From contig WIXG01000067.1 of the NCBI GenBank assembly GCA_009869945.1, forward strand, positions 186,001-250,000: 64,000 nucleotides of DNA. Direction: 5' to 3'. This DNA is from Mesaphorura yosii (lineage: Eukaryota > Arthropoda > Collembola > Poduromorpha > Tullbergiidae). The notes below the pieces were generated by a model. It was given only the letters and a program-made list of their open reading frames with translations. It was not told the origin of the DNA and made no database searches. How positions within the stretch are numbered: the stretch's first letter is position 1; each line of letters begins with the position of its first letter. A program made the position numbers and the translations under genes. Positions 2,941-64,000 of the stretch are shown in pieces.

Positions 2941-5900
2941 ATGTCTGACCTCCTCTCCGCCCCTCTTAAGAAGACGTCCGAGGTGGACCTCGTCAAGCCC
3001 CTCCGCAATTTAATAGCGAGCTTGTACTCTAATTCCGACACGCCATCGGATTACTCCACCGCAATTAATGAGTTAAACAAGTTGAGGACGCAGGCATGCT
3101 CCAAAACGCTGGACAAGACGATCCCGGCGTTGGAGGTGATGTACAGGTGAGTGAATTTTCATTTTCTGAATCATCCTCCATCGCCCAATTCCTTAAATTA
3201 ATCTCTAAACTGCAGATACCACGACCAACTCACAGCACTGGAGTCGAAGATCCCCCCTCATGAAGTCCAGATCCCGTTCAAATGGAGGGATGCTTTTGAT
3301 AAGGGCGGGTTGTTTGGTGGGAGAGTTAGTGCGAGTGAGTACGGCATGTGAATAATGTATTTTTAGTTTAGATTTCTCTAACAAAAATATCTTCTCTCCT
3401 AGCTGCCACCTCGCTCCAGTACGAAAGGTGCTGCCTGCTCTACAATATAGCTGCACTTCAGAGTCAGATTGGTAGTAGTGCAAGGCTGACGGATTCCGAT
3501 GAGGAGTTGAGGTCGGCTGCGAGGATGTTTCAGGTAATAAAGATGGGACCTCGAGTACCCCCCAAAGGGGGTTCCTGGGGCACTCGAAATGTTCGCTCTG
3601 CGGTGGCGGCCCTCGACCTCCGTTACGGAGGCCCAAAACTCTAGGCGATCCGATGATTTTCCCCAACAATTTGTGGCGCGGAGCGGCCGACAGCCGAGTC
3701 CTCAACAGGGGTGCGATTTAATGGGAATTCTGGGGGGAATTCCGAAAACTCCCGTTAAAATTTGAAACAAAATTTAAAAATTTCAAATTCTCATCTGAAC
3801 GCGCCTACCGGCGCTCGCCTAAACCTTGTCCAAGTCCAGAAATTCCTAAAAAAAGAATCGAAAAATCCCCGCCAAAGCTGGTGTTTCCCAGAACTCATAA
3901 TTCAAGTTCCCAATGGCCAAAATTCTAATCTCTCCCTGATTTACACTCCACAGCTTTCCTCCGGTATCTTCTCCGCTCTCCGCTCGACCGCCTCCGCCAC
4001 TTTATCAGGGCAAGAACCGACCCCCGACCTCCAACCGGACACTCTCCAGGCCCTATCAAACTTGATGCTCGCCCAAGCACAAGAAATATTCGTCTTGAAA
4101 GCCGTGAATGACAAGATGAAGGAGGGAATTATAGCTAAATTATGCGCTATTGCGGAGGATTTATACGGGGAAGCACTGAAATCCATGCAGAAAGACAGTG
4201 TAAAGCACCTATGGGAGAAGGAGTGGGTCGGGGTGGTGAGTATTCATTTATTAAGAGTGGGGGAGTTATTCGTGCAGTTTATCATCATCTTTCCAAATCT
4301 TGCCAGGTCTCCTCCAAACAAACAGCCCTCTCCGCTCTAACACAATACTTCCAATCTTTCACCGCCGCCAGCAAAAAGCGCGTAGGGGAGCAGATCGCAA
4401 GACTCCAACTCTGCCTTGAACTCTTGCAAAAAGCCCAGTCCCGCTCAGGCCTCAACGTCTACCAAGACTACGTCCAAAAAGCGACCCGCTCCCTCGCTGA
4501 GGCTAAGAAGGACAACGATTTCATCTACCATGAGAGGATCCCTGAAGCTGGAACCTTAGATCAGGTTGAGAGGAGTGCTGGGGCGCGGTTGGCTAAACCG
4601 ATTCAAGTGCAGGAGAAGATGAGTGGGGATAAATTCAGGGATCTGTGAGTTTTTTTCTTACTTTCGCACCCACTTTTTTTAAGGAAATACTTTTGGGGAG
4701 CACCCACTTTTTGAAACCCCCGCCAAATTTATAATTCCAATTCCGCGCAGGTTCGACTCCCTCACCCCACTCTCCATCCACCAAGCCCTTGCTGCTTGTG
4801 AATTACGCAAAACAGAATTGGTAAACACGAGTTTGGGAAAACTAGCCGAATCGACCCAAACGCTAAATGCTGTGCTGGCATCTTTAAACCTCCCCGCTGC
4901 CGTTGAAGATCAAGATGGGGACCTTCCTTCATCTTTGAAAGAAAAGGCTGCCAGGGTTCTCCAGTCGGGTGGCGTTCAAGGGTTAGAAAAAGCAATAAGG
5001 GAGATGCCCGAGCTAGTTCAGAGGAACAAGGAGATATTGGACGAGGTTGGGTTGACTATTTTGAATGACTCCCTTTTTTAAAAAACTAAACTTTAAAAAA
5101 CCCCACAGGCCGACCGCCTCCTGCAAGAAGAAGAGCACTCCGACGCACAACTCAGGTCGCAGCTAAAAGAAAAGTGGACCCGGACCCCATCCGATAAGCT
5201 AAACACAACCTTCAAAACGAATTCAGGTCGTTATAGGGAGATTATTAATAACGCGCTCGCAGCGGATGAGGTGGTTAAATCTAAATTCGGAAACCATCGC
5301 CCAGCGATGGAGATGTTAAGTGGGGGCCAGGAAAAATTGACTAATAGCATTCCAAAGATGAGTGGAGGAGGACAGGTAGAGGGCAGTGAGGGGGCGAAGA
5401 AGGAGCTGCGAGGTCTGATGGGGGAGGTGAGATTGCATACATTTTTTAAAACTTGAACATACAAAACCACTCAATTCTTAAAATACAGGTCTCCTCCCTC
5501 CAACATTCACGCGACGCCATAATAAACGCACTAAAATCCCACTCATTCGACATGCGGGCCCCATTCTTATCTGCACTCGCGCAAGAAGGAGCTTTGGATG
5601 AGCAGTTGATTTCCGTTGAGTTGCTTGGGAAGGAATATGGAAAGTTACAGCAATCTGTGCAGGAGTCGATTAGGAAGCAGGAGGAGTTGATTGCTAGAAT
5701 ACAGAGTGCGAGCAGTGCACTGAATCAGAATGGAGGCAACAGAGACCAAGTCATGAGGGAGTTGGCGGAGGGTTATGATGCATTTATAGAGCTAGAAGGG
5801 AATATCAGGGAGGGTACCAAGTTTTACAATGATTTGACGCAGGTGGGTGATTTTATTTCCCCAACTTGTCTTCACGACCTTTGAATCGCTCTTCTCTCTT

Positions 5901-6292
5901 CACAGCTCCTCCTCGCCTTCCAGAACAAGATCGCCGATTTCTGCTTTGCCCGTAAAACCGAGAAAGAAGAGCTCTTAAAAGACGTGACGAGGGACGCGAG
6001 CCAATCTAGCGGGCCTCCACCAGCGAGGCCACCGCAGCCTGTTGCTCCCCCAGCAGCATCTACAGCCCCACAATACCAACAATCACCAGCCCAGCTCCCC
6101 TACCCCCCTCAAGGATACAATACAATGCCCATCCCCTCCTTCTTCACCCCTGCCCCCATGCCAACTGGGTATAATCCATACGCGACGTACGCTCCGGGAT
6201 ACCAGCAGCAGCAGTATCAGCCTTACCCTGTTCAACAGATGGGGGGGTTTAATCCTTATTATCAGCAGCAGCAGCCGCCCCCTCCACAGTAA
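2941..6292 (+). CDS. PDCD6IP: ALIX / PDCD6IP, Bro1-domain ESCRT adaptor
   Basis: Cytosolic adaptor that links ESCRT-I and ESCRT-III in multivesicular body sorting, cytokinetic abscission and membrane repair. Nine exons (2941-3146, 3216-3334, 3403-3533, 3954-4235, 4307-4644, 4751-5045, 5109-5426, 5489-5842, 5906-6292) give 809 residues, close to the usual animal length. The N-terminal Bro1 domain (about 1-350) shows KKTSEVDL, WRDAFDKGGLFGG and LMLAQAQE, all strongly conserved. The coiled V domain follows (about 350-690, with NDFIYHERIP and LNLPAAVED). The C-terminal proline-rich tail carries repeated GYNPY and QQQQ stretches. The ATG at 2941 matches the family N-terminus. Intron 3 is unusually long for this gene because it contains a dispersed repeat. 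All domains look intact. Confidence 0.97.
3547..3735. repeat. dispersed intronic repeat, copy 1 (ALIX intron 3)
   Basis: This segment matches 60809-61018 in an intron of SHMT. Shared blocks include ttcctggggc with actcgaa, ccaacaatttgt, ggcgcgga, cgacagcc and ctcaacag followed by gtgcgattta or gtgcaattta. It is GC-rich, contains a small hairpin (cctccg-tta-cggagg) and has no coding frame. It is probably a non-autonomous mobile element; the class is unknown. Confidence 0.7.
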
Positions 6293-32026: not shown

Positions 32027-35000
32027 TCAAGGCAATCCTGTACCAAACTTGCTCCGGTGGGCGGAGGATTTGTACGGGCGGAGGGCCTGCAGAAGAAAAT
32101 CTTCGTTGCCATCACAATACACTCAAATAACACGACAATCCGGACAAATTGGCTCACCACACAGTCAATATAAGCATCGCACCCGTAGCACCAAATCGAT
32201 AAATCAGAGCAGCTAATAGCCAGTCTGTGACCTGTCTCTGTAAAATGCTGCTGCATGTGCTTGTTGACGTAGCGACTGCAGTGAGGCTGTAAAGATTTGA
32301 GAGCGGTCAACGTCGAGTAAACATTTTTAAAAAAGTACCGGCACTCACCCCAAAGCAACTGAGGCACACCCAGTTTTCTAACGTATTCCCGCACTCTTCA
32401 CAGTCTTTTCCAGTGTCCATCCCGCCAGGTGGCAGGACTCCTAAATCAGAGTCCAGATGGGGGCAGTAATCAAGTGGCTCTACTAAATACATTGCCTCGT
32501 TTCCATCGTAGACCTGCTCATTTCCAAAGATTAGACTATAGGCGTCGGCGATTGTTGAAGGAGCAGCTGCACTGCATCCCCCGACTGCCCCCTCCAGGAT
32601 CTGTACATCATCAGAGGTGTATCCTCCAACCGCCTCCAGCTTGTGCTCGTTAGCCTGTAGCGAAGGTGGTGCGTCCACGCGCAGCTTCTGCAAGCCCTCC
32701 ATGAGCTCCTTTTCTAGGTAGTCTCCTGCCTTTACGGGGCACTCCTCCGGGACTATCTTATCGAAAGCTGATAAGCTCGCCCAGTACTCACTCTGGACAC
32801 TGATCACATCTTGAATCGATGCCATAGCTTTTCCTTTAACCTCCCCCAACTGAAGTGCAGGAAGCGGATCCCCCAACAGAACCCTCGTGCAACTCGCCAT
32901 CGAGTAAGAAATGGATTCAAGGTTGTAGCCCCCCTCTAATGTGAGGATTAGCCTACCATTAGCCAGTGGTTTTAATAGGTGAGTCATGTGCCCATAGCAC
33001 TGTGGAGTCACACGGTAGCCTGTAAAGAAAACGAATTATTGGAGTCAGTGTGATCATCTAAATACTCGTACTCACCGCCAAGGGGGTCCCCCACCGCCGC
33101 ATCGAACCCAGCAGAGACGAGTACCAACTCTGGTCCGAACTCGTAAGCAATAGGGAGTATAACATTTATGAAGGCCGCCATGTACTCTTCGTCCCCCATA
33201 CTTCCACCGCTGAAGGGGATATTTACATTGTAACCCAGGCCGGGACCATGCCCTACTTTATCGTAGTCAGCCTCTCTGCTGCACGGGAAGAAGGATCCTC
33301 CATCGTAGCGGTGGAGGGAGATGTAAAGTACTCGTGGATCAGAGTAGAATGCGTGCTGAACCCCGTTCCCATGGTGAACGTCCCAGTCTAGTAGTAGGAT
33401 TCTGTGGGGTAGAAAAGGAGGGGGTAAAGATTGGAGTGTCGTGTTGTGTTGTTTGAAAAAAGGACCTTTTCAATCCAAACTCCTGCATCGCATATTTAGC
33501 TGCTATGACCACATTATTATAAAGACAGAACCCGCACGCGTAATCTTCTTCAGCGTGATGGCCAGGGGGGCGGATGACTCCTATGCCAGACTGTAGATTC
33601 CCAATCAAAACTTCTCTTACTAGGTTCAATAGCCCACCGGAGGCTAGGAGGGCAGCCTTGTTAGAATTATTATTCAAGAAGATTGAATTGTAACGCTCTT
33701 GAAGTTTGCTCAATTCCTTCATGGGCATTGTAGAAGTGCGCCCCATCTGGTCAATGTGCTCCTGCCCATGGAAGAGAGCCAGCTCTTCTGTAGTCGCCTC
33801 CCTGGCTTGTACACTGACACACCTCCCAACCAACCCGTACTCTTCGTGTAGAGAGTGGATCCTGGAAATCCGCTCTGGGCGCTCGGGGTGGTTCCTGCGC
33901 AGAAATACAGAGTGTAAAAGGAGGTTACACTCAGAGGTCTTGCACTCACCCCTCTTGATTCCGATGCCCCATCATCTTCTCATCATATAAATAACCAACT
34001 TTGTTTTTAGCTATGGCCAAGTCCGTTGTGAGTATTAGTCTGTCTAGTAATTTATCTAGTTGCTCAAACTCTTCTTTTGATTGGAGTGGATGGCAGTCCC
34101 TTGTTGGGTATAAGAGGGGTAGTGGCTCTGTCCATAAATACTCAGCTTTTGGTTTGTGCACATTGTCATCATCAGCAGCGGAGGTCCGAATACACTTCAA
34201 TCGTAGCTGCTCACGGAGGAGGGAGTGGTGTGAGAGTACAATATTAACGAGCCTGCAATTATTCGTAAAGTGGTTTGGTGTTTCAGTTCCCAAGATTCGT
34301 GCAACTCACTCTGGCATTGGCTGGTCCACCGTACTTCCTATTAAAGGGCAGGGGTCTCCCAACAGAGTTCTTAAGCTTAGAGCGGCCGCCTCGGATAGTG
34401 ATTTGATGCAGTAGCCCCCTTCTAAAACTACAGCTAATTTTCCTTTAGCAAGTCCTAACAGGGGGTGGATCAAGTGTGGGTAACAGGAAGGCTCGAGTAA
34501 CATTCTCCCTTCGGGGCAGCCTATGGCGGCGTCATACCCAGCGGAGATCAAGACGAGGTCCGGTGCAAACTGCGGCAAGTGTTGGATTAGACTCCTACAT
34601 GCTAAATGCGGAAAAGTGTAGGAAAATGCTAAACTCACCCCGTACGCCATTGGAAGGAGTAACTGCATCCATACAGCTAGAAATTCATTGTTCCCCATCC
34701 CCGTCTTGTTGAGGGGGACATTCATATTGTAGCCGTGTCCTTCCCCTGAACCGACCCAGTTCCAGTTGGACTCAATCAAATTTGGCCAGAATAACCCATC
34801 CTCGTAACGGTGCGTGGAAAAGTAGAGGACCCTGCGCAGCATTTACATGAATGTGGTATGGTGAGGGGGCTCCCTAAAAAGACCTCACCTCGGATCCCCA
34901 TAAAACATCTCCTGACTCGCCTGCCCGTGATGAACGTCAAAATCCACTATTAAGATCTTTTTCGCTTTTCCACTCTCAAGCGCATGCTTGGCTGCTATGG

Positions 35001-42882: not shown

Positions 42883-44861
42883 TCAATCTCCCTCAAAGAG
42901 TGCACTAAAAAGTGAAAAGGAATGATTTAGTTATTTCTTGCTCCACGCACGTTTTTAATCATATCGTACGAACCTGCATTGACCTTCTGCAGCCTTGAAC
43001 GCTGGGACCGTTTCAAAACAATCGAGGCCAGAGCGTTCATATTTGGAGTCGTGAATGCTCAAAAGAATCGCTTGTCCTTTGTGCCAAGATGTAAGCAATT
43101 CCGAATTTGTTGCAATTCGAGCTCGGCTCTGACATGAAGACTCGTGCTTTGCACAGAAATCTTTAACGAGTAGCTCCGCCTCGTTCTTGTGTCCAGTCTC
43201 AACTTCCTGCGTACGTTCAACAAGATTACACGATTAAAGGGAATTTTACGAGACAAGACCATGAAATCCAAATTTTCGTACCTCGCACCAAATTTTCCAG
43301 TTTCCGTAGAATTTCCCACCCTCCTTCACAGTTCCCCGCAAAGCATTGGCGCGAGCACCAGCTTCCACATGGAGTTGAATGGTTCTAATTTTATGCCCCA
43401 CGTATTGCTCCAGTTGTTCAAGGCTGCAAGTGGCCAGATCAAGCTCGGCTTCCGGTTCAAACTGAGTTTGCCCCCAAATTGAAGCTTCTATTTGCAGCAG
43501 ATTGGCAAGTGATGATGGGTTGATTCCAGCGAATATTTTACCCGTGCCTGCCAAAGTCCTCATGAAGCGGGTTGCGAGCTGTAGAATATAAGAGATATTA
43601 TACATTTTTAATTACACATTGTATCCGCTTAATTTCTTAATCTTAATAATCTTAATGTGCCTCAACTTACCTCGAAATGCGACTGTCCTGCAGCAAAGCA
43701 TGATTTGTCCACCGCCGAGGCTCCAGCGGTTACATGGCAGACGGCAGTGCTCCAGAAAAGCAGCTTAGCATTGGCAAGACCTAAAGACGTAAATAATATT
43801 ACACTTCGCATGCAAGCAATGCGGAAAAGCGGAGTAAATGTTATCTCTCTTTGTATAGCGATGTCATCTTACTTCTCTCTGGTTGCCCCTCCGCCAAAAA
43901 CTCGAGCGTTTCCCTTGTGTATCTGTTGAGGATATTAAATATATTATGTCCCATTAAAAATGCAATTAACTACAAATTCATTAGGCCGATAAAGCAATTA
44001 ATTTATAGTTCGGCGCGAACTCATGGCGTCAGGTACACAAATGCTGACAAGATGAACTCAGTCGTGCGAATGAGAGTTGTGAATGCAATGGCGACGTATT
44101 TCTCACATTGTGTAATTTGTGAATGTGTAACAGTCAGAATCCCACCCACCGCCCTTCATGACATGACACTCACTCAGTACACATGGAATTATGCCAAAAG
44201 TAGCCTTTGCCCGCAATTTACCCCTAATTTTTAATACGAAACCAAGGAATACTGAGCTCACAATCACAATCAGTTATTGCATATTGCATTTTTTCCTCAT
44301 ATCGCTCTTGAACTGAAGCAGTAAAACGTTTTCTCAACTGCTGGAATCTTGCAAAGTCGTATAAAAACTTTGTTTAAAAGGTAGGTTTCAGCTATCTGAA
44401 TTTAGGAAAAAGTAATGATTATGATCATTGAGAAATTCAAAAGCCTTTTCAAGTGCGGTTGGCCAGGCCGACGCAAATTCGAGTAGAAGCTAATCGCACG
44501 TGTTAAGAGCATTAATTGCTTGCGAAGTTCTTATGACTGTCTATTCCTTGACCTGACTAGTGTACTGGCAGGGTTAAATTCATGCGACGCACTGAGATTA
44601 GTTGTCAGTGTCTAGAGCATGTGCAGAAGTAGGAATAAAAAGGGGCAGAGTGAGATCCTTGACAAGCGTCGTGCCGTTGCATAATGCAACAATATGCAGA
44701 GTCGTTTAGAAGATGACTACTGACCTCATTGCCACTTCTTCCGTTTGGTTGTCAAAATCTGCCAATTCCTGAAGGACAGAAGGAATGCCAGCGGTGAATG
44801 AATGATTGAGGGTAGGAAATTTTTGAGCGCTGAAGGGTCGAACCGTGTACACGGGAAACAT
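42883..44861 (-). CDS. Bro1-like helical paralogue A
   Basis: Six exons (44725-44861, 43873-43922, 43671-43780, 43282-43578, 42974-43206, 42883-42904) with intron phases 2-1-0-0-2 give 282 residues. It pairs along most of its length with the gene at 48258: FWSTAVCHVTAGASA, SHFELATRFMRTLAG, LLQIEASIWGQ, QLHVEAGARANALRGT, NWKIWCE and SKYERSGLDCFETVP each have a counterpart there. No signal peptide or membrane helix; predicted mostly helical and cytosolic. The pattern of a long helix ending HFELATRF-like before a spaced LLQIEA helix resembles the Bro1 fold. The FKWTD-type motif of true Bro1 domains is missing. The last exon is short and its acceptor is the least certain boundary. Confidence 0.6.
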
Positions 44862-47800
44862 TTTGCGAGAATTGCGAGAATTTACAAACCAGTAATTAAT
44901 AATTAACGTTGTTTCAGTTGTGCGATTCAAATTAATGCGGTTTTATTGTAAGAATTTGCAGGGCTGGATTAGATTGAACTGGTATTTTAAGGGTCTGAAC
45001 TTGGGAGTTCTTCCCTGTGAGCTGTTAGAATAACGAGTGGCCAACTTTCGCACTATTACACCTATTAATGCGATCATACGGTCATACAAGATCGTACTTT
45101 TTCCTGCGTTTTTTATGGAGATTCGCGTTCACTTTGAGAGGGATTATGATTGAAGAGCACAATGAATAATGTGGTTGACAGGACTATTGATTGAGCTATT
45201 GCCCAGGACTGAGCTATTACGGCAGAGCTAAATGTTACTAAAAATAACACAAACTGATTCGCGACGGCTGGCGACGGTGTCGTTATGTTATACACACATT
45301 CTGGGAATCGCTGTCGGCGTGCTATTAAAGGGGCAGTTATTTTATAATAAGCATAGCATAAGCTTAAATTCGTTGCGTTTAACTTTGCGTTGCGTTTCAA
45401 GCATTCTTTGCGACCGCCGACTGATGCATGATGACACAGTCATTGCCAGGTAGTTCATTAACTCGTGTTTGTGGTAATAAACAACGCAAATTAGTGAACA
45501 CAAAAATAACTCCATAAATCCAATTGTAATCGAATAGTCCATAATGTGAATCTTAAAAAAGGTTCCCTCAGATTCGACTGACCGATTACGACAGCTATTC
45601 GCGATTCAACAACTTAATCAGCCCAACCTAGTAAATTCCCGTAAATTCCGAACTTATTTCCATGAGTCATATTTATTATAGTTTGTCTTCTTATTTATAG
45701 TCACTGAATCCGTACATTCTTGATCACAGGTCGCAGAAACGGTCTTTTCTTGTATCCCATTACTTCCATTCCGATTACTACGTATCAGCGTGGTGCTATT
45801 AAATGGGAAACGCTTTCTGATTTATTAACACTCAATTAGGATCTTTAAGTTGAACAAATTCTTGTACAGACGCTGTACGTGAAATTGCACCTCCTTTATA
45901 GAAATGAGTAGACAAGTGGAAAAAGGCTCGTAATACAAGACAAGCAGACACAGTCCTATGAGTGAGACATAATGAATGCACTGATTAAAAAAGTGTCAAA
46001 TAAAAGAGGCTGTATGCTAATTTTGATTATGATCATTTACTGCTTTTATGCAGTGAAGTACTCGTCTCACTTCCATTCGAGGCAGCCTGGTCACATGTCG
46101 AATGCGAGAGTTCACCGGGTTCGGCCTGTGGCTAATTCTTACGTGGGCCAACCACTAATCAGTCGTCATCGCCCATTGAAAGAGAAATCGGATTACTCAT
46201 GCCACATGTGCGCCGGCGGGTCTGTATGTCTCGTGTAGAAGAATGTATGATCCATGTTTTGTGTTAAAGCACTGCACTTTGCTGTACTTTACTCTTCTGA
46301 GTACCGCACCCATTTTCAAGTGCGTAGTAAGTACAGAGCCTGTACTCTACTGTACTTAATACGTAATACACAGAGTGGTCTCACGACTTACGTAATGAGT
46401 GCGCTTCATTCGTGAACGCGTTGAAGGTCGACTGCGGTGTTGATGTTTCATTGCTTGAGGTCAGAACTTTGATCTCAGAGCAACTTACGCTGGCGCTATT
46501 GCCCTTCGCCCTTTACGCATCTTGTCACACTTTTACATAGGGCTCTCCTGCCTGCACATTTTCCTGGCAATCAATTCACCTAGCTGAGATTTCGGAAATA
46601 GCTTAAGCGTTTATATGTATTATACGAGATTGTTTGAGTAACTGGATTGTCATTTCATCATTTTTTTGCCTATTTTTGACCAGATCGGACGGATGATTCA
46701 GCTTGCTTCGCTGCAGACCGCAGACTTACACCTTCGGACTGCTGTTGCGTACTTTACTCTTCCTTACACGAACGCAACCGTACGCAGAACTCATGGAATT
46801 TGAACGCTAGCTTATATTCATTGATGCTTCATGTTCATAAACGTGTCACTCTGCTTCTCGCCGCACGGGTAAAGTTGACTACAAGAACTAAGATTCAACG
46901 AAGCTCGTCGAATGAATGATTTCCTGAGTGAATGCTGACACTTAATTCATGCTCTTAATATTACGAATAAAACAATCATAGAAGATACCGGGAGGTGCAC
47001 TAAGAGGTTTAGTCGGGACTTTACGTGTTTAGACTTACGCCAGTAACGCCTATTGTTACTAGCTTTGAATTGTAATGTGTACATGTTATTGTATGTCATA
47101 AGGTGTATTGTTTCTTCGGGAAAAAACCGATAGAAATACGATTGGTAGCAATTAATTTGGCCAAGCATTTAATTGCTATGAGCTGAATCTTATTCTATAC
47201 AATGGTGCAAATGCCAAGCTTTCAGCTTCCAAATAGAGTCTTAAAGTACAAAATTAACGCTGCAAGAGAATGGAGGAAATGTTTACGTAGAATAGAAATG
47301 CCTCACCTGAAGGGGAAGCTGCCTTTATAGTATTGTACGCAGGTCCATTTTAATGGCGCAGCCTCACAATTTTATGACTGAATGGTGGGCAGTCCTTCTT
47401 TCCACGGCTCGCCGACTTTCATACGCTTGACTGGTTGCCTCTTGCTGCCTCGCGTGTCCTTTGTGTGTACCGTCAATATTATTACGATCCCACGTGACTC
47501 ATCCTCATCATCAGCTAAAACGCCATACCTCGTTCCTGTCACAAAATAATATGAACAACCACTGGTTAATTACATGATAATTGGAGGACCATTCTGTGAA
47601 ATCTACTCTCATCAGTATGTTAACTTCTCGTCCCATTCGATTCAGATCTAAAAACTATTCTCTGAAGTCAGGGAAAACAATCATCGCGTCTTTCCATGTG
47701 ACCGGTTACCAGACCTTGTGTTGAAATTTTCTGTCATCGCACGCAGTGCCTACGTCCGATTACGCCAGTATACTAAATCTTTTCGCTAATGGACCTCATC

Positions 47801-47872
47801 TGAAGTCGGAGCCACAAGAATCATGACAGGAAGGGTTGTCTCCCAATCCAATTGGACTTTGGAATTGGAAAA
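44862..47872. other. long intergenic region between head-to-head paralogues A and B
   Basis: No convincing gene. An 88-codon plus frame at 45972-46238 starts with a membrane-anchor-like stretch (CMLILIMIIYCFYAV) but has no other support. The interval carries the upstream regions of paralogue A (minus) and paralogue B (plus). Confidence 0.4.
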
Positions 47873-47910
47873 AAAGTGTCAACTTTGACCTAGGTCAAAG
47901 TTGACACTTT
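47873..47910. promoter_or_regulatory. 38-base perfect palindrome with two AGGTCA half-sites
   Basis: Each 19-base arm is the exact reverse complement of the other, with the centre tgacctaggtca. That centre is two AGGTCA nuclear-receptor half-sites back to back with no spacer. It lies 348 bases upstream of the ATG of paralogue B and 243 bases before its TATA box. Confidence 0.5.
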
Positions 47911-48115
47911 CGCACATATGAGAATGCAAGCCGCGCAGCTTATCTGCTCTTTGTTTTTCATAGTGACAAGGCTGAATTACAACTAGCTACAACCAATAAG
48001 CCACCTTAACTTAAGCAGTAAGTTGATGCTTAATCAACTCTAGAGTCTAAAGTCTGTCTACTGTTTACGAATATAGTGTACGCTAGAGAGATGAGTTTTG
48101 CACAGGAATTGAGAG

Positions 48116-48122
48116 TATAAAA
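48116..48122 (+). promoter_or_regulatory. TATA box of paralogue B
   Basis: TATAAAA stands alone 136 bases before the ATG, with a plausible initiator (ttctcactttt) about 25 bases further on. Confidence 0.5.
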
Positions 48123-48257
48123 GAAGAGCTCATTCGCCATTCTCACTTTTCGTAGTGCAGAACTCCGGAAGTCTCAAGTTTTGATTAACAATTCGATTCG
48201 AGTTTGAATTCAGCATCCCCGTGTATAATTTCTACTTGTGCTGTGCTGCCCATCAAG

Positions 48258-50210
48258 ATGAACGTCATGTCGACCCTTCGTCATGTGCCATTAACACTCT
48301 ACGCTTTGCCCAGGTCTGCCCCAGACGAGTTGGTCCAACTTCACTCCAACCTGACTTCCACTGATTTCACTCGTTTACTTGAAATTGGGATGCACAGGTC
48401 AGTATATAAGTCATTGTCTTCGCGTGGCTTCAGGCGTAGTGCAGGCGTGTTAACCAATTGTACATGCCGCGTGCGGAAACTTTCTGATATGATTCTGGAT
48501 TTTCACACTTTCTTCACGCGGCATAGATTCATGTAAAATTTGTCCCTTTGTCCTGTCATTAGTCCCGGTTCCCCGCATGTTAAAGTCAAGTGCACGAATA
48601 ATGCATGAAGTGTACGAATAACGTGCTTAATTGCATTGATTTTCTCCTTCACAACAATGCATGCGATTTAACTCAATATGAGAGGATGCATGCTATATGA
48701 ATTTTGAACAATTATCCGAACTTCAATCATAAGTAAGTACATGAATGGAAACAGCAGACCATTCAATAACCGTATCAATATTGCATCATTAATTTTCACG
48801 TGGTAACCATGCGAAACCATCGAATCAAGCAAACAATCTCAGAATTCTCGTGAATGGAAGTTCTGGGGTTTGGTTAGACACCGCAATTTGCAATCGAGCT
48901 TGCAAACACGCGGTTTTGAGGTGATATTTTGCAAATTGTAAAGAGCATAGCCAAGGGTACCTTGGGACCAGAGCATTATTAACGATATTTTTACAGATAC
49001 TCAAAGATCGCTCTTGAACTTCTCGTGGACGGGCTCCCAGAGACAGGCAAGATATGAATCATTGAAAAGTGACATGCAAATGCTGACCTGGCATGAGACA
49101 ATTGACCGCATGCGATTAAGCCTCAATATTTACACGTTTAGGAGGTGACTCAAAGGATAAGGAAGTGCTTGCTTGGAATGCCGCTGTCGTCGAAGCAATC
49201 ATTGGAACAGCAGCAGCGGCCGAGAATCGTTTTCTCGAAGGGCACGGTCATTTTGAGGCTAGTTTAAGCGTTTCTGCGTTTCTTGCACCTTCAAATGCAT
49301 TCGCTTCATCTAATTTTATCGTCTGCTTCCGCATCTACAGCTTGCCGCCCGCTTTATGAGAACGCTGGCCGAAACCAGAGTGGGCGCTTCATTCGCTGGA
49401 GTTAAACCGAGCATGCTGGCCAAAGTACTGGAAATTGAAGCGTCAATTCTTCGGCAGGCTGCAATCTGCACTGATTTAAATTGTGCTGATTTGGACTTGG
49501 ATGTGAATCGCTTTGAGGTGTACATGAATCAGCTCATTCTACTTACTCAGCTGCACGTAGAAGCTCGTGCTCGAGTTAAGGCACTGCGTAAGACGCAAAA
49601 GTATTCAAAATCAGATTTTGACTGGAAAATTTGGTGCAAGGTTAGTTTCAAAATTGCATGCAGTCATATACAGTGAATGAAGCACACAGTAAAAAGTAAA
49701 GTGAAAATCATCCAGTATTTTTTATATAATCAAATTCCATAACATTTTTTATCTCTTCGTGGCAGGGACTTGAGAATGTGCATGAGAAAGAGGCGAAGGA
49801 GTTGGAGGACAAACTCGGAGCTGTCCGCATCGAACGCCCTGCTTCACCAATTCTACGAATGAAGGTAGCTGCGATTAAGTTGAAAACAAGTGCCTTTCTG
49901 TTAAGAATTCGTAAGTCCGGATATAAGGATTCAGGACTGGAGAATGTGGAAGATTTGGTTCCAGAGGTGACTCCCTTCGAGATACATGGAATTGCTGCAG
50001 GATTGGAAGACATGTAAGCAAATACAATAATTGAGGTTTTAAATAAACGGGAACGAGAAGTAATCTCACCAGTAATCGCTCTGTCAGATCTAAAGTTTAA
50101 TTAATTTTTTACTTTTTTCAATTTGTAGATCCACTCGTGGCCCGAAATTTTTCAAAGGAAACGGAACCTTTGCTCGGCTATTCAACACAATCGAAGGCAA
50201 AGGCAATTAA
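48258..50210 (+). CDS. Bro1-like helical paralogue B
   Basis: Six exons (48258-48397, 48997-49046, 49142-49257, 49341-49640, 49766-50013, 50129-50210) with phases 2-1-0-0-2 give 311 residues. Paralogue of the gene at 42883-44861, with shared LAARFMRTLAET, LEIEASILRQ, QLHVEARARVKALRKT, WKIWCK and KDSGLENVEDLVPE. The donors of exons 2 and 3 are GC (ggcaag, ggctag) rather than GT, whereas paralogue A has gtaag at both, so either GC-AG introns are used or the gene is decaying. No signal peptide, no membrane helix, largely helical. A TATA box lies upstream. Divergent Bro1/BROX-type domain is an inference; function unknown. Confidence 0.6.
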
Positions 50211-52210
50211 CTTCACATCTCATACGCGGCCTCTAGCCTCAACCTTCGAGGAACTTCAAATTTTGGAAATTTGAGGTTTAATTTCCTCCTTTATGGAGAG
50301 TATGGACTATGATCATCCAGCAAAGGATGCAGCAAGATGATCCTGTCTAATGCACGGAATTATGGTCATTCCTTGCCATTTACCAAAACGACTTTGTTAC
50401 CTCTTCCATTTTCTTTGACAAAATAAACGTAATACATAGAAATACATCGATTTTTTAAAATTCATGAACACACCATCCTAAAACTGTGTCACCAAAGCTC
50501 AGGAATTAGAGTTTTACATCAGTTCAGACGAGTTTTGGCATTTTATGCGTGTGCTCTTCCCCCATTTTGAAACAGGACAGTATTTGAGAAGTTTTGGATT
50601 GGTTCCATTGCACAAACTAAAAGCACCTCCTTCGTTCATTCAGCAACCGTGACGTGTGCTCATGTTCGGCTGCTGCTGCTTCGACGTGCGTGTTCGTACA
50701 AAATATTTAACGCAAAAGGCCTTCTGTTCTGTCGGAACCCTCTCGTGTCTGGTCTCCTCCCTTGTGTCATGATACTAATACACGAACGCATTCGTTTCTA
50801 TGCTTAATGCTTTCATTTATCGCAATTTTTACCAGCATTTATCCTACATAAGCATTTCCTCTTTTTTTATCAGAGTTTGAGTATTTCGGTTCGAGAATTT
50901 CTGCACATTTCTCTAATTGTGACTGTTAAAGCTGTTCTTCGCTACTTATCATCTTCGTTCAACGATCTCCAGAGAATTCGGTTTAGATTTCCAGGAAAAG
51001 TTGACTCAATCGAACATTTGAAAGCAAACCGCATAAAAACCGTAGATTAACTCTACGCATCTAGATGCAGTTTATTTTTAGCAAGTGGTCAACACTCACG
51101 AGACACAAAGTCAAAGAGAAAAGTCTCTGGTATGTGCTGTTGCGATGTGGATGAATGAGTTTAAACCATGCAGCTGACCACGGAATGCGACTGTCCTTGA
51201 GTATTTTCTGCATGTATGCTTCTATGGCGTGATATTTTTGCCATCACTACAAGACTACATACACTTGATAGTGGATGACGTGTCTCGTAGCAGCGGATGT
51301 TTTCATTATTGTGTTCCTAAGGACTGGAAACTGGAAACTGCTTTAATGCATCTGTACGCACCCATGCTATTTAAATGATTGTAATTGCATTTGCACTGGT
51401 AATAGGCATAATTTCAAAACCGCTGGGTCGCATGGCGACTATCCATGGAATTCTTATGTACAATCACTTTCATGTAAGATGAGTAATAATTGAGTACTGC
51501 AGCGACGGTCAGTCAATCGCAGGCTAATCGTTGACCAAGGGAATAATACCTCATTTAGATGCTAACCCGAAAGGTTTTGTAGTTGTCCAGAAATTTAATA
51601 ATATGAAATTCCATCGGATTATGCCATTCGAGATGATTTCTGCACTCTTCGATGTAGAGATTTGACTGATCATAAGGAAGGAAAAAGAAGACCGAAAGAC
51701 CTACCACGCTCTCTCATTCATGCACCAACCGACCCACCGAAATTTGCAGTCAGATTTTGAGGGCCCAATCAGAGTACACAAGCGTAAGTATTGTTCAATC
51801 TTTCAGCGTACTTCGTGTATCTCGTGTACATCATATTCTCTCCACGTCTTCGTCATCGTGTTTCGTGTTGTCCCGAGAGAGAACGAAACCTAATTAATGC
51901 TTCTATCTGCAATATTACTACACACTTGTAAGATGATGACGTGATTCACATTCTGGCCATTGCCTGCTTCGCATTTACTCTCGTACCTTTCTTGGCTGAC
52001 CGTAAACAGCCTACATAAACCGTAAACTCATACATACTCATCAACCAAACGCCGCGTCGTCCTCATTGCTTTGCTGCGTGCATCTCATCATTGTTCACGT
52101 CCTCGTTCATCACAGAATTCCATACCTTTAATTAACCTCCATCAGAATTTCAAGTGTGTCCAGTGCTCTTTAACTGTGTACTGATTAGAGTACTTGAATT
52201 TTGAGACAAA
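50211..52210. other. intergenic region between paralogues B and C
   Basis: AT-rich, no recognised gene or exon remnant. It includes the promoter of paralogue C; no TATA box is obvious there. Confidence 0.4.
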
Positions 52211-53843
52211 ATGCCTGTGATTTCAAAATTCTGCTTTGGTGCATTCTCAAAGGAGGACATGTACGACAAGTTTGTCGATGTTGTGAAACCGGCACGAGAC
52301 GTGCGTCTCGTATTGAATTGGCTGATGCGATCTGAAAATTTGGTGTCCAAACCAATGGACCAAGCCTCCGATATTCAATTGGCATTGAGGTGAGGATGAA
52401 ATATGATTTACATTTTACTGTGGACGGAATGACAGTAGCAGTTATGAATGTCCGAAGAAGAAGGGGAAACCTCATTCGTGGCTCAGTCTATGAACTTGAG
52501 GACCATGTACCAGAATATGGCCAAGATCAGACACACATTAATTCCTGAATCGTAACCGTCATAATTTAAAATGATAATTATTTTAGATTTATTGAGGTCG
52601 CACTTCACGTCGTGAAGCGTACGGCTGCATTAGGAAATGCCGCACCGGCCGCGAAAATCATTCGCTCCTTAAATAAGGAGATTGGTAAGCCATTTAAATT
52701 TTATACCCAATCAACATAGGATCCAGTCGTCAAGGGGTCATCCTGCAATGTGAATACACAGGTTCCTCGGCTGCAAGTATGGCACTAAATGTGGCGGATT
52801 TCCACCTGAAGAATGCATTGTCGCTCATCGAGAACAAAGAGAATGGCAAGGCACTAGAGCACGTCAAAGTAAGTTAGAATGTAATCGGTTACGTATTCGA
52901 TTGCGAATTTTCTTTTTAATTTCTACAATTTATATCTCCTTTGAATAGATTGGAGCTGGAATCCTCAAATTTATGACAAATCAGTCACTTTGGTTAACCT
53001 CAAAAATGAAAGCAGCCTTGAAGGCTCGGTTGAACATTTCAAACAATGTCGGTCGTGCCATACGGCTGCAAATTGATTGGCTTCCTTTGGTTAATTCGCA
53101 AGACTTTGAGGAGCTGGCCGAAGTTCACGCTTCCACAGCCAAAGCTTACTACAACGTGCAGAAGGAGGCCCACTGGAAGAAGGTTGTACCGTCAGTAAGT
53201 ATATGCAAATGTAAAAGTGGCAAGTCAAATAAGCCTTTAAAAGTCAAGGCAGGGAAAAGGATCTCACTTTCGTAGGTCTCAATCTCTTTCATATGGATAT
53301 TAATGTGCAGGTCACAGAGCAATTAGAAAGACATCGGCGAGATTGCAAACGCTACATACGCGATTATGCTAACAAAAGAGAAGGAAAATCGTGGTACCAA
53401 TCGGCGAGACTGTTGGCTATTCAATGCAACAATTTCATGGCTTGGAATGACGTCCGGCAAGACTTGGTGCTGATGGCAACTGAATTTCATGGCAAGAATT
53501 TGGAGGGAATGACTTGGTGAGAATTAAATCATGCCCCCCATTTTCCCGCGAAAACAGATTTAATTTCTATTCCTAATCTTGCCACGTTCGGGAAAACCTT
53601 TCTGGCGTTAAGGGTGAAATATTTCATGAAACTCGTAAATTATATTTAGGAACCAGTGAAAATATTTCCACCAAATTCATTTCTTTCGAGAAAAATTATA
53701 TTTTCAAGAACTATTAACTATCGTTTTCTTCGCGCAGGAAGGAACTCTCCGACTACTCGGATCGAGGAGCACTTCCCGTCCGTGTTCGCATCACTTGGGC
53801 CATTCAACGGATTGCGAAAAAAGTCAAAAATTCCTCAGCTTAA
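52211..53843 (+). CDS. Bro1-like helical paralogue C
   Basis: Six exons (52211-52389, 52587-52684, 52762-52868, 52949-53194, 53311-53516, 53738-53843) with phases 2-1-0-0-2, the same as A and B, give 313 residues. Sequence identity to A and B is low, but every exon corresponds in order and size. This copy shows the Bro1/BROX likeness best: NVADFHLKNALSLIENKEN, then LEHVKIGAGILKFM (compare the LKIAAGIFKHL type of helix in BROX), then ASTAKAYYNVQ and HWKKV. The C-terminus is basic (RIAKKVKNSSA) and lacks the CAAX box of BROX. The frame is clean and splice sites are canonical, so the gene is probably active. The role is unknown; membrane remodelling or ESCRT binding would follow if the fold is right. 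Confidence 0.7.
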
Positions 53844-59543: not shown

Positions 59544-62500
59544 ATGCTGCTGCTCAGACTGCACTCTGCTGTAACTGCTGCCGTGACAACTGGAACGCCT
59601 GGGAAACTGCTGGCGAATAAGGTGAGTTCAGATTCTGGGGGTACTCCCGAATAAAGTGAGTTTTCGGTCGTATTTCGGGAACGAGCGGACTGCGTAAAAG
59701 ACAAAGAGTGGGTTTGCGAGCTGAGGCGGTCGATTGAAAACCACTCAAATCGCAAAAAAAACCTGTTCACGTCACACACGTGCCGCCGCCGGTCTTGATC
59801 TCCTCCGTGAAGATACGAGTTCCCTGAGTAACAACCTGTCGCAATTAAATCACGGCGCAATCACAACAGGGAGTAGCGCATGCCCTGCCACGCAACCTCG
59901 ATCGCTCGTACGTTAACATTCCTTTTTGTACACTCCAAACAGCGACTGCTCCCGAATCTCCAACAACTGCAAAGAATGAGTTCAAACTGGACCGGAAACG
60001 AGCCCCTCTCCCAAGACGATCCGGAGATATGGGGGTTGTTGAGAGAAGAAAAGAAGAGACAAATGGCAGGGTTGGAGCTGATCGCGTCGGAGGTGAGTGA
60101 CTTGAACTTAACTTTGACTTAACTCTGACTGGACTTGAACTTGAGCTTGACTTGCACTTAGACCATTAAGGCAGTTGTCAAGAAAACGAACCATCGATTT
60201 TTTACTGTAAATAAGCTAACTCTGTGAAATAATGCCCCGCAGAACTTCGCCTCCCGCTCCTCCCTTGAAGCCATGGGCAGCTGTTTTAATAACAAGTACG
60301 CGGAGGGGTATCCTGGGGCCAGGTACTACGGGGGGACGGAGGTGGTTGACAAGCTAGAGTTGCTCTGTGAGAAGAGGGCTCTTGAGGCGTTTGGACTTGA
60401 TAAGAACGAGTGGGGGTGCAATGTGCAGCCGTTGGTGAGTTGATTAAGAGAAAAGGAGATGACATGTTTGTTGCCATGCCGGTAACGTCTTTGACTAAGA
60501 ATTAACCCGACAATTAATTTTCTGACAGTCCGGCTCCCCCGCCAACTTCCAGGCGTACACGGCTGTCCTCCAGCCACACGACCGGATCATGGGGTTGGAC
60601 TTGCCGGATGGGGGGCAGTAAGTTATTTTTTTAGTTCCTTTGGTGAAGTCAAAGACTAAGGCACCTTTTTTAAATCTTAGTCTGACACATGGGTTCATGA
60701 CGGACACGAAGCGGATCTCGGCCACCTCCGTCTTTTTCGAGTCGATGCCTTATCGGTTGGATCCGGCGACAGGTAAGTTTTTGGGGGTGGCGTCGTGAAC
60801 GAATCAAGGGCCTCAAGGACCCCACGAAGGTCCTGGGGCGCTCGAATTCGCTGTAGCGGCGTGACCACCTTCGGCGGTAACACGCTAACCCCTGCCCCAA
60901 CCGTTACAAACGAGCGAGATCCCGGCTTCTCCAACAATTTGTTGGCGAGGCGCGGAGGGAGCGAAGCGACCGACAGCCCAGTTCTCAACAGCCGTGCAAT
61001 TTAGTAGAATTTGCGGGGAAAAAGGGCGGGGAAACTTCCAATAAATTCAAAACAGATGATACAAGAAATTGCCAAGCAGCCCAAACCCGCCAACCCTTAA
61101 AATTCCCCCCAAACTCAATTCTTCATTTCAAACCCCTTCTTAAAAACCCCCTTTTAATCCTCTCCACAGGTCTCATCGACTACGACACCCTCCTGTCAAA
61201 CGCCCGCCTCTTCCGTCCCCGTGTCATCATCGCCGGCACGTCCGCCTACAGCCGCCTACTCGACTACGCCCGCTTCCGCTCGATTTGCGATGAAGTTGGA
61301 GCCTACTTGCTATCCGACATGGCCCACATCAGTGGATTGGTCGCGGCGGGTGTGATTCCCTCGCCTTTTGAGCATTCAGACATTGTCACGACCACTACGC
61401 ATAAGACTCTGAGGGGTGTGAGGGCTGGATTAATATTTTATAGAAAAGGGGCCAGGATGGTGAAGGGGAAGGAGGTTAAGTACGATTTGGAGGGAAGGGT
61501 TAATTTTGCCGTGTTTCCGCAGCTGCAGGGCGGGCCGCACATGTGAGTGGGGGTTTTTGACGGGGGTTTTAAGAAACTAAAAAAAGAATGGGAAAAAAGG
61601 AAAAGGAGACTGTGGAAGGGAGCATGAAAAAAAGTTGAAAGAAATGAAAAAAAATCTCTTAAAAGACGAGTCTGTTAAACAATTTCCTAAGAAAAGTGTT
61701 CCCGTGGTGACGCGGTGTCTTATGACTTGTTTATTGTTCCCGCAGGCACGCCATCGCAGGGGTCGCAGTCGCCCTCAAACAAGCTCGGGAGCCCCACTTT
61801 AAAGACTATCAAATCCAAGTACTGAAGAACGCGAAAGCGATGGCGAAACGCTTGGTTGAGCTCGGCTACAGCTGCGTGAGCGGTGGGACTGACAATCATC
61901 TCGTGCTGGCAGACATGCGGTCAAAGGTGAGTTACTTTTGTGGTGGTTGGGGGCTCAGCAAGTGATATATGTTCTTTGAAAGTTCAGATTGAATTTCTTT
62001 TTGATGACCTCACCAAATGAATCTTGTAAAAAAAAGTTTCGCTTTGAAATCGACTTTTTTGTGATTTCTCACCAAATGAAAACATTAAACATGTTTAAAA
62101 ATTATTTTTTTCTTGTGGTGAAACCCAATTCTAAAAGGCACTTTGACTTTTTCTTGTTGGCTATGGGCTCACCAAATGAAACGCTCTTTAAAAGAATATT
62201 TAACTCACTAAATTAGAACCCGTCTTTCAACAAATTTTCTTCAGATATTTTTTGTGATCCTCTCACCAACTGAACCCTCTTATCTCCACACAGAACCTTG
62301 ACGGAGCACGCGTCGAGTCCGTTTGCAACCACGTCAACATCACCGCGAACAAGAACACGTGTCCGGGGGACAAGTCTGCGTTGACTCCGAGCGGGTTGCG
62401 GTTGGGTGAGGCTTTTTCTTTTTACTGCAAAGTGTCTTTCCTTTGGCGTGAATCACTCACTTTTTTTAAATCTCTGCAGGCTCCCCCGCCCTCACCTCTC

Positions 62501-63501: not shown

Positions 63502-64000
63502 CTAGTCCAACCCCGAGAAACATTTTTCGTTGGTAAAACGTTGGGGCGATCTCGTAGGCCCTGCATGAAATGATAACTCGCTTAGCGTATCATCTTTATC
63601 GTGTGTGAGGTTAAGTTTCTTTCCGAGACGCTGAAGTGAGTTTTCTAAAGTCTGTCCTTCTGAATCAATCCAGAGAATATAATCATACTCGCTTTCGTAT
63701 TCATTAGCATATCGTTTTGCAGTGCTTGTCTTCCCAATTCCGCCCATTCCGACCACTGCGTGCTTCGAAATGATTGCAGATGCTTTATATTCACTGGAGA
63801 GTAACTGATTCCTCAAATCTTGAACCAAATATCGACCATTTGAATTGGTTCGATTTATAAAGGAAATAATCGTGTCCTTCTTTTCCGGCCACTATTTTTG
63901 TTGCAAAGCAAGCGTGTCTCTCTTTGCTGCGCTACTTGGTGCACATTCTGACTGACAATCATGTCCAGATTTTAATGCAGCTTCGTAGATCAGACGTTCT
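63502..64000 (-). CDS. NB-ARC (STAND) ATPase fragment, runs off the window
   Basis: A minus frame carries the Walker A block VVGMGGIGKTSTAKRYANEY followed by YDYILWIDSEGQTLENSLQ and RLGKKLNLTHDKDD, the normal first part of an NB-ARC domain in animal STAND proteins. Upstream, WPEKKDTIISFINRTNSNG looks like the linker before the P-loop. The frame stops at 63502 before the kinase-2, GLPL and later motifs. Either an intron near 63570 is missed or the gene is truncated. The 5' part lies right of the window. Such ATPases often act as innate-immune or cell-death switches; partner domains are not visible here. Confidence 0.65.

Follow-up and report, generated by a model that had tools for sequence, protein, structure and literature searches.

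Three genes, here called A, B and C, in a 64-kb window of contig C67 (the window being the whole stretch of DNA analysed) are probably truncated duplicates of the Bro1 part of ALIX (PDCD6IP) that have evolved by birth and death. The exon plan of these genes, and of a further intact copy (H) on contig C401, is the ALIX plan.

Gene Models of A, B and C

The original prediction placed three genes of six coding exons in this part of the window, all with intron phases 2-1-0-0-2, and this was borne out: each splices to an open frame at the positions given below.

44861-42883, minus strand: gene A, 282 aa, six coding exons in open frame, phases 2-1-0-0-2
44861-44725, 43922-43873, 43780-43671, 43578-43282, 43206-42974, 42904-42883, minus strand: coding exons of gene A, from splice sites and open frame (137/50/110/297/233/22 nt)
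48116-48123, plus strand: TATA-box-like sequence TATAAAAG, its first base 142 bases upstream of the B start codon (a pattern match only)
48258-50210, plus strand: gene B, 311 aa, six coding exons in open frame, phases 2-1-0-0-2
48258-48397, 48997-49046, 49142-49257, 49341-49640, 49766-50013, 50129-50210, plus strand: coding exons of gene B (140/50/116/300/248/82 nt)
52211-53843, plus strand: gene C, 313 aa, six coding exons, phases 2-1-0-0-2, all introns GT-AG
52211-52389, 52587-52684, 52762-52868, 52949-53194, 53311-53516, 53738-53843, plus strand: coding exons of gene C (179/98/107/246/206/106 nt)

The 15 introns of the three genes are GT-AG in all but two cases, B introns 2 (49047-49141) and 3 (49258-49340), which require GC donors (CAG/GCAAGA and GAG/GCTAGT, respectively). 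The gene A donor that matches the site of B intron 3 is a plain GT, and none of the introns modelled in ALIX (its first five), short ALIX, HD-PTP, A, C and H has a GC donor (the ALIX-type and HD-PTP genes are described below). The end of exon 2 in copy F on C401 (L026 near 4407) is possibly another GC donor, as judged by eye.

By BLAST, A and B share 39% identity over 239 aa (E 8e-39), whereas C gives only chance-level matches to either (best E 3.0 for A-C and 9.3 for B-C), in agreement with the earlier description of A and B as clearly alignable and C as more distant.

A Second Cluster on Contig C401

Searches of the same genome with A, B and C (one each) returned weak exon matches on C401 (E 0.017, 0.0019, 0.027 and 0.47), and five further copies, D to H, were located there by an exon HMM scan together with reading of the DNA. 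The scan covered the 64-kb window, the whole of C401 (63.8 kb), 37 kb flanking the window on C67 and 17 kb of C154, and showed no extra copy in the window or in the scanned flanks on C67.

C401 42199-40754, minus strand: H, intact, 309 aa, six exons (185/98/134/258/212/43 nt), phases 2-1-0-0-2, all introns GT-AG
C401 from 48581, minus strand: G, A/B-like, truncated
C401 from 54891: D, C-like, intron 1 lost, introns 2 and 3 kept in phase, frame break in exon 4
C401 from 57759: E, A/B-like, without exons 2 and 3
C401 from 59923: F, only exons 1 and 2 visible

The two introns kept by D repeat introns 2 and 3 of C with their phases. When D, E, H and G were each used once to search the whole genome, the matches lay only on C401 and C67, apart from two weak matches of G on C34 (E 0.83) and C326 (E 2.6). 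Because the searches with A, B or C did not list H, the copy counts are lower bounds. The family had been described as locally expanded; the local trio stands, and the expansion is not purely local, given the five copies on C401. Two other matches were rejected, one to exon 4 near short ALIX (C154 91991-92410, E 0.045), which lies in an unrelated ORF, and one at L027 4068-4358 (E 0.78), considered noise.

C-like and A/B-like copies adjoin each other at both loci. Direct similarity between the A/B and C/H subfamilies is not significant (P 0.66 and P 0.22), and they are linked by their common exon plan and by this side-by-side position in the C67 window and on C401.

The Exon Plan and the Bro1 Loci of the Genome

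A genome scan with PF03097 gave at least 14 exon-level matches at four loci: an ALIX-type gene in the window, a second, short ALIX on C154, HD-PTP (PTPN23) on C25, and a gene on C290 that combines Bro1 (1e-60) with PDZ (1e-12) and which we take to be rhophilin-like. The positions of the two ALIX-type genes are as follows.

2941-6292, plus strand: ALIX-type gene of the window, with a BRO1 match (5e-111) and the first part of a V domain, the end being a stop read by eye past the Pro-rich tail
2941-3146, 3216-3334, 3403-3533, 3954-4235, 4307-4644, next from 4751, plus strand: exons of its Bro1 part (206/119/131/282/338 nt for the first five), phases 2-1-0-0-2
C154 98174-99804 (L004): short ALIX, a Bro1-only paralogue of 400 aa with six exons (206/128/128/282/335/124 nt) and phases 2-1-0-0-2, ending after exon 6

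The earlier placement of the family next to an ordinary ALIX locus was correct in that the ALIX-type gene lies in the same window, about 37 kb away. Short ALIX matches Pfam BRO1 (2e-88), has human ALIX as its best match in PDB, and is 43% identical to the window ALIX. The best PDB match of the HD-PTP gene is human PTPN23 (4e-105).

Five introns with phases 2-1-0-0-2 are common to the Bro1 part of ALIX, short ALIX, A, B, C and H, while the HD-PTP gene of the same genome has the plan 0-2-0-0-0-2. Ranked by size, the exons also follow nearly the same order in A, B, C, H and ALIX, with 4 and 5 the longest, followed by 1, 3 and 2. If the three phases are taken as equally frequent, a match of five phases has a chance of 1/243 per comparison. 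The R/Y type of residues at intron 1 is shared by ALIX, short ALIX and genes A and B, and recurs at the corresponding position of human ALIX; C has R then F, and H has K then Y.

Short ALIX resembles the family in its six exons, its phases, its end after exon 6 and its Bro1-only architecture, but it is a plain Bro1 protein to Pfam and keeps the FxWxD, Phe105-loop and FIYH signatures. HD-PTP shares with C a W-K-K near the end of its exon 4 equivalent (H has W-K-N), but differs in its intron plan and in having a plain Bro1 domain.

The original prediction had pointed instead to BROX, on the basis of a resemblance in the pattern of helices, and a BROX lineage that has lost its CAAX tail would also agree with an architecture limited to a single Bro1 domain without a V domain. 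We consider such a lineage very improbable as the source of the family. No BROX-like locus is among the four PF03097 loci of the genome, and among the plans compared (ALIX, short ALIX and HD-PTP) the family follows that of ALIX. The family proteins are also shorter than BROX (282-313 aa against 411 in 3um3), and A, B, C and H have neither CAAX nor FxWxD. The proposed BROX resemblance is therefore not supported.

Sequence Similarity to ALIX and Other Bro1 Proteins

Searches of A, B and C against Pfam gave no family with E values up to 10, and H gave no BRO1 match, only two unrelated families (E about 0.1); short ALIX (2e-88), ALIX (5e-111) and the Bro1-PDZ gene (1e-60) served as positive controls. 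On the PF03097 check that accompanied the original prediction, none of A, B, C and H thus counts as Bro1 for Pfam. Two Pfam matches of D, to VP_N-CPKC (E 3e-4, below its cut-off) and PrkA (0.02), cover short or partial stretches and were taken as chance. No Bro1 chain was found in PDB sequence searches with C, A1 and A3 as queries. Since the profile tests fail, as do the motif tests described below, the evidence so far does not justify classing these four proteins as members of Bro1 or BROX.

Tests without anchoring at the introns gave little. Per-exon shuffling against ALIX detected no signal for A or B, and in C only for exon 1 (p 0.005, the floor of the test). The true pairing of exons ranked 34/120 for A, 111/120 for B and 29/120 for C. 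Profile-profile comparison of exons gave p values of 0.08, 0.21, 0.12 and 0.04, with one mismatched control reaching 0.06; both exon 3 matches kept the register, falling on the Bro1 LFNxAA stretch, and both exon 4 matches were out of register. When ALIX, short ALIX, A, B and C were aligned with MAFFT, introns 1 and 3 both fell together in one setting; two other settings brought together one of the two, or intron 3 for A and B alone, and no setting did so for introns 2, 4 or 5.

In an anchored test, ungapped similarity was scored in the register fixed by the introns, summed over all five, and compared with 1000 residue shuffles (floor 0.001). Against ALIX, p was 0.001-0.002 for C and 0.001 for H whichever of the six settings was used, and the values for A (0.002-0.09) and B (0.003-0.27) varied with flank length and with the exclusion of junction residues. 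Weak resemblance to ALIX in this register is found at the flanks of introns 1 and 3, and also of intron 4 in C and H; no anchored signal is seen at introns 2 and 5 in any member, or at intron 4 in A and B. With the ALIX introns permuted, the true pairing ranked 1/120 for the genes combined (3-4/120 without junction residues), and separately 1-6 of 120 for A and B and 4-6 for C. Random ordered anchors gave p 0.003 (C), 0.087 (A) and 0.146 (B) with a flank of 10, and 0.002, 0.006 and 0.014, in the same order, with a flank of 12.

Alignment by hhalign, which is blind to the introns, was carried out against five Bro1 proteins. For the group C, H, D and F (P 0.0086), introns 1 and 3 fell exactly on those of ALIX; for A, B and E (P 0.07), intron 3 was exact and intron 4 within one residue (positions read by eye in both cases). 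An earlier run of the C-like group without H had given P 0.34, and the hhalign probabilities were low throughout (0.2-4.7%). As a whole, the sequence evidence that would point to descent from ALIX is weak but in register.

These results bear on whether A, B and C might belong to an unrelated helical gene family that shares six exons and their phases with ALIX by coincidence. Such a family would have no sequence match to Bro1 in Pfam or PDB, would give unanchored results that are not significant or out of register, and would explain the missing anchored signal at two of the five introns throughout the family and at intron 4 in A and B. Coincidence would, however, have to produce the match of all five phases, the likeness to ALIX in the anchored flanks of intron 1, intron 3 and, for C and H, intron 4, and the exact register of intron 3 in both subfamilies when hhalign had no knowledge of introns, and we regard this as unlikely.

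Coding Status and Constraint

Between A and B, the frequency of differences is 0.46 at first, 0.33 at second and 0.59 at third codon positions, and over 219 aligned codons dN is 0.55 and dS 1.81 (Nei-Gojobori). They are under purifying selection, with a dN/dS of about 0.31, and selection has therefore maintained both proteins for much of their divergence. Among four other pairs (C-D, B-E, A-E and ALIX-short ALIX), dS was 2.03 once and saturated (not computable) three times, so that the evidence of constraint on C and H is confined to their open frames. The codon-position pattern of A and B, dN relative to dS, and the presence of homologues D and H on C401 support the reading of A, B and C as coding genes.

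Several copies on C401 show what decay looks like in this family, with the broken frame of D, the missing exons of E, the two visible exons of F and the truncation of G, and B requires its two GC donors. A, B and C could accordingly be functionless ALIX duplicates, pseudogenes caught before their frames broke, but we think this rather improbable in view of the 282-313 open codons that A, B, C and H each keep over six exons, and of the A-B ratio with its excess of third-position changes (no usable dS being available for C and H).

Absent ALIX Features and Predicted Structure

Three Bro1 motifs, in forms that we chose from alignment A2 (FxWxD, LFN..A and AQAQE), are present in ALIX, short ALIX and HD-PTP and absent from all of A, B, C and H. 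A looser N-x-A form is seen in B (at 74) and C (at 75 and 100), and not in A or H. A CAAX box at the C-terminus is likewise missing from the four proteins, so the earlier report that the FKWTD-type motif and the CAAX tail are absent was accurate. ALIX, for all its likeness to the family in five introns with their phases and in weak in-register similarity at introns 1 and 3 and, for C and H, at intron 4, differs from A, B, C and H in its Pfam BRO1 match, its FxWxD, Phe105-loop and FIYH signatures, its V domain and its Pro-rich tail. The family proteins lack the last two, ending 7 (A), 27 (B), 35 (C) and 14 (H) residues past intron 5.

The Phe105-loop (DKGxLF) and FIYH signatures are both found in the two ALIX-type genes of the genome and in none of A, B, C and H. 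In ALIX the Phe105 loop falls within the part encoded by exon 2, and this exon, 119 nt long in ALIX, has only 98 nt in C and H and 50 nt in A and B. At the CHMP4-contact positions (F199, I212 and L216), MAFFT settings disagree for the family members. An apparent Asp at the I212 position in C, D and H, seen by eye, was dropped since the settings disagree there. According to PMC3230590, which includes I212 among these positions, Surface 1 of human ALIX binds CHMP4, and Surface 2 includes I318 and Y319. The same paper places Phe105 on an extended loop unique to ALIX among the structures compared, and reports that mutations in the Phe105 loop or in Surface 2 each impair the activity of ALIX in HIV-1 budding.

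The loss of two signatures of functional elements argues against a role as an ALIX adaptor, and it leaves ESCRT antagonism without positive support. The original prediction had suggested that the family could antagonise or redirect ESCRT functions. One form of this would be active decoys, Bro1-like proteins that would bind CHMP4 or viral partners of ALIX and so block ALIX itself. Inhibitors derived from ESCRT components do exist, e.g. retroCHMP3, and a Bro1-only architecture, strong divergence and copy turnover would suit such a role. Such decoys are nevertheless improbable, as the Phe105-loop and Surface 2 signatures are absent, mutations in each impair ALIX in HIV-1 budding (PMC3230590), and the CHMP4-contact positions are not alignable. 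A better candidate for an ESCRT modulator would be short ALIX, which retains the Phe105-loop and FIYH signatures, as well as FxWxD, and could bind CHMP4 without a V domain.

Single-exon folds were predicted for exon 4 of B (with A and E; pLDDT 55) and of C (with D; pLDDT 60), and both models are all-helical with two long helices, at a confidence too low to decide on the fold. A Foldseek search with the poor B exon 4 model gave 68 matches at E values up to 10 and none at 0.001, and no Bro1 chain was among the best 50 of the 68.

Proposed Origin and Possible Function

The preferred reading is that a truncated duplicate of ALIX retained the Bro1 part with its five introns and gave rise to A, B and C, the window ALIX being the likely source of the exon plan. 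Short ALIX on C154 is a duplicate of the same sort that can still be recognised. The proteins would then have diverged past the reach of profile detection while the intron phases persisted, and the copies would have multiplied, with inversions, exon losses and decay, in two clusters, in the C67 window and on C401. The Bro1-like identity first proposed for the family is supported as to ancestry, by the ALIX exon plan and the weak in-register residues, and not by way of BROX.

We infer for the A/B/C family a Bro1 ancestry, a helical Bro1-like scaffold and neofunctionalisation. As to the functional step by itself, the likeliest mode of action, at slightly less than an even chance, would be that of soluble helical peptide-binding scaffolds with new partners, which are no longer ESCRT adaptors of the ALIX type. 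A wider proposal is much more speculative, namely that they are lineage-specific, fast-turnover, Bro1-only offshoots of ALIX that have left the ESCRT adaptor role and are engaged in an arms race, as antiviral or anti-transposon decoys or in reproduction, with exon architecture as the clearest trace of their origin.

Should this origin prove correct, a fast-evolving family that is invisible to profile searches, and can be found by the number and phases of its introns, has arisen from a core ESCRT adaptor, and the family is a good test case for homology detected through exon structure. A, B, C, H and short ALIX also provide concrete proteins for asking what a Bro1 scaffold does without the known surface signatures. 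Literature searches, with subscription journals mostly outside their scope, found nothing on Bro1 in Collembola, and no paper describing such a family was among the matches listed.

Other Genes in the Window

Two conserved neighbours were recognised in the window, and a third open frame may run off its end.

33342-33971, minus strand: histone deacetylase (E 7e-34)
60881-61543, plus strand: serine hydroxymethyltransferase (E 2e-61)
63505-63891, minus strand: open frame carrying an NB-ARC domain (Pfam E 1e-6), which may belong to an immune-type NTPase that continues past the window
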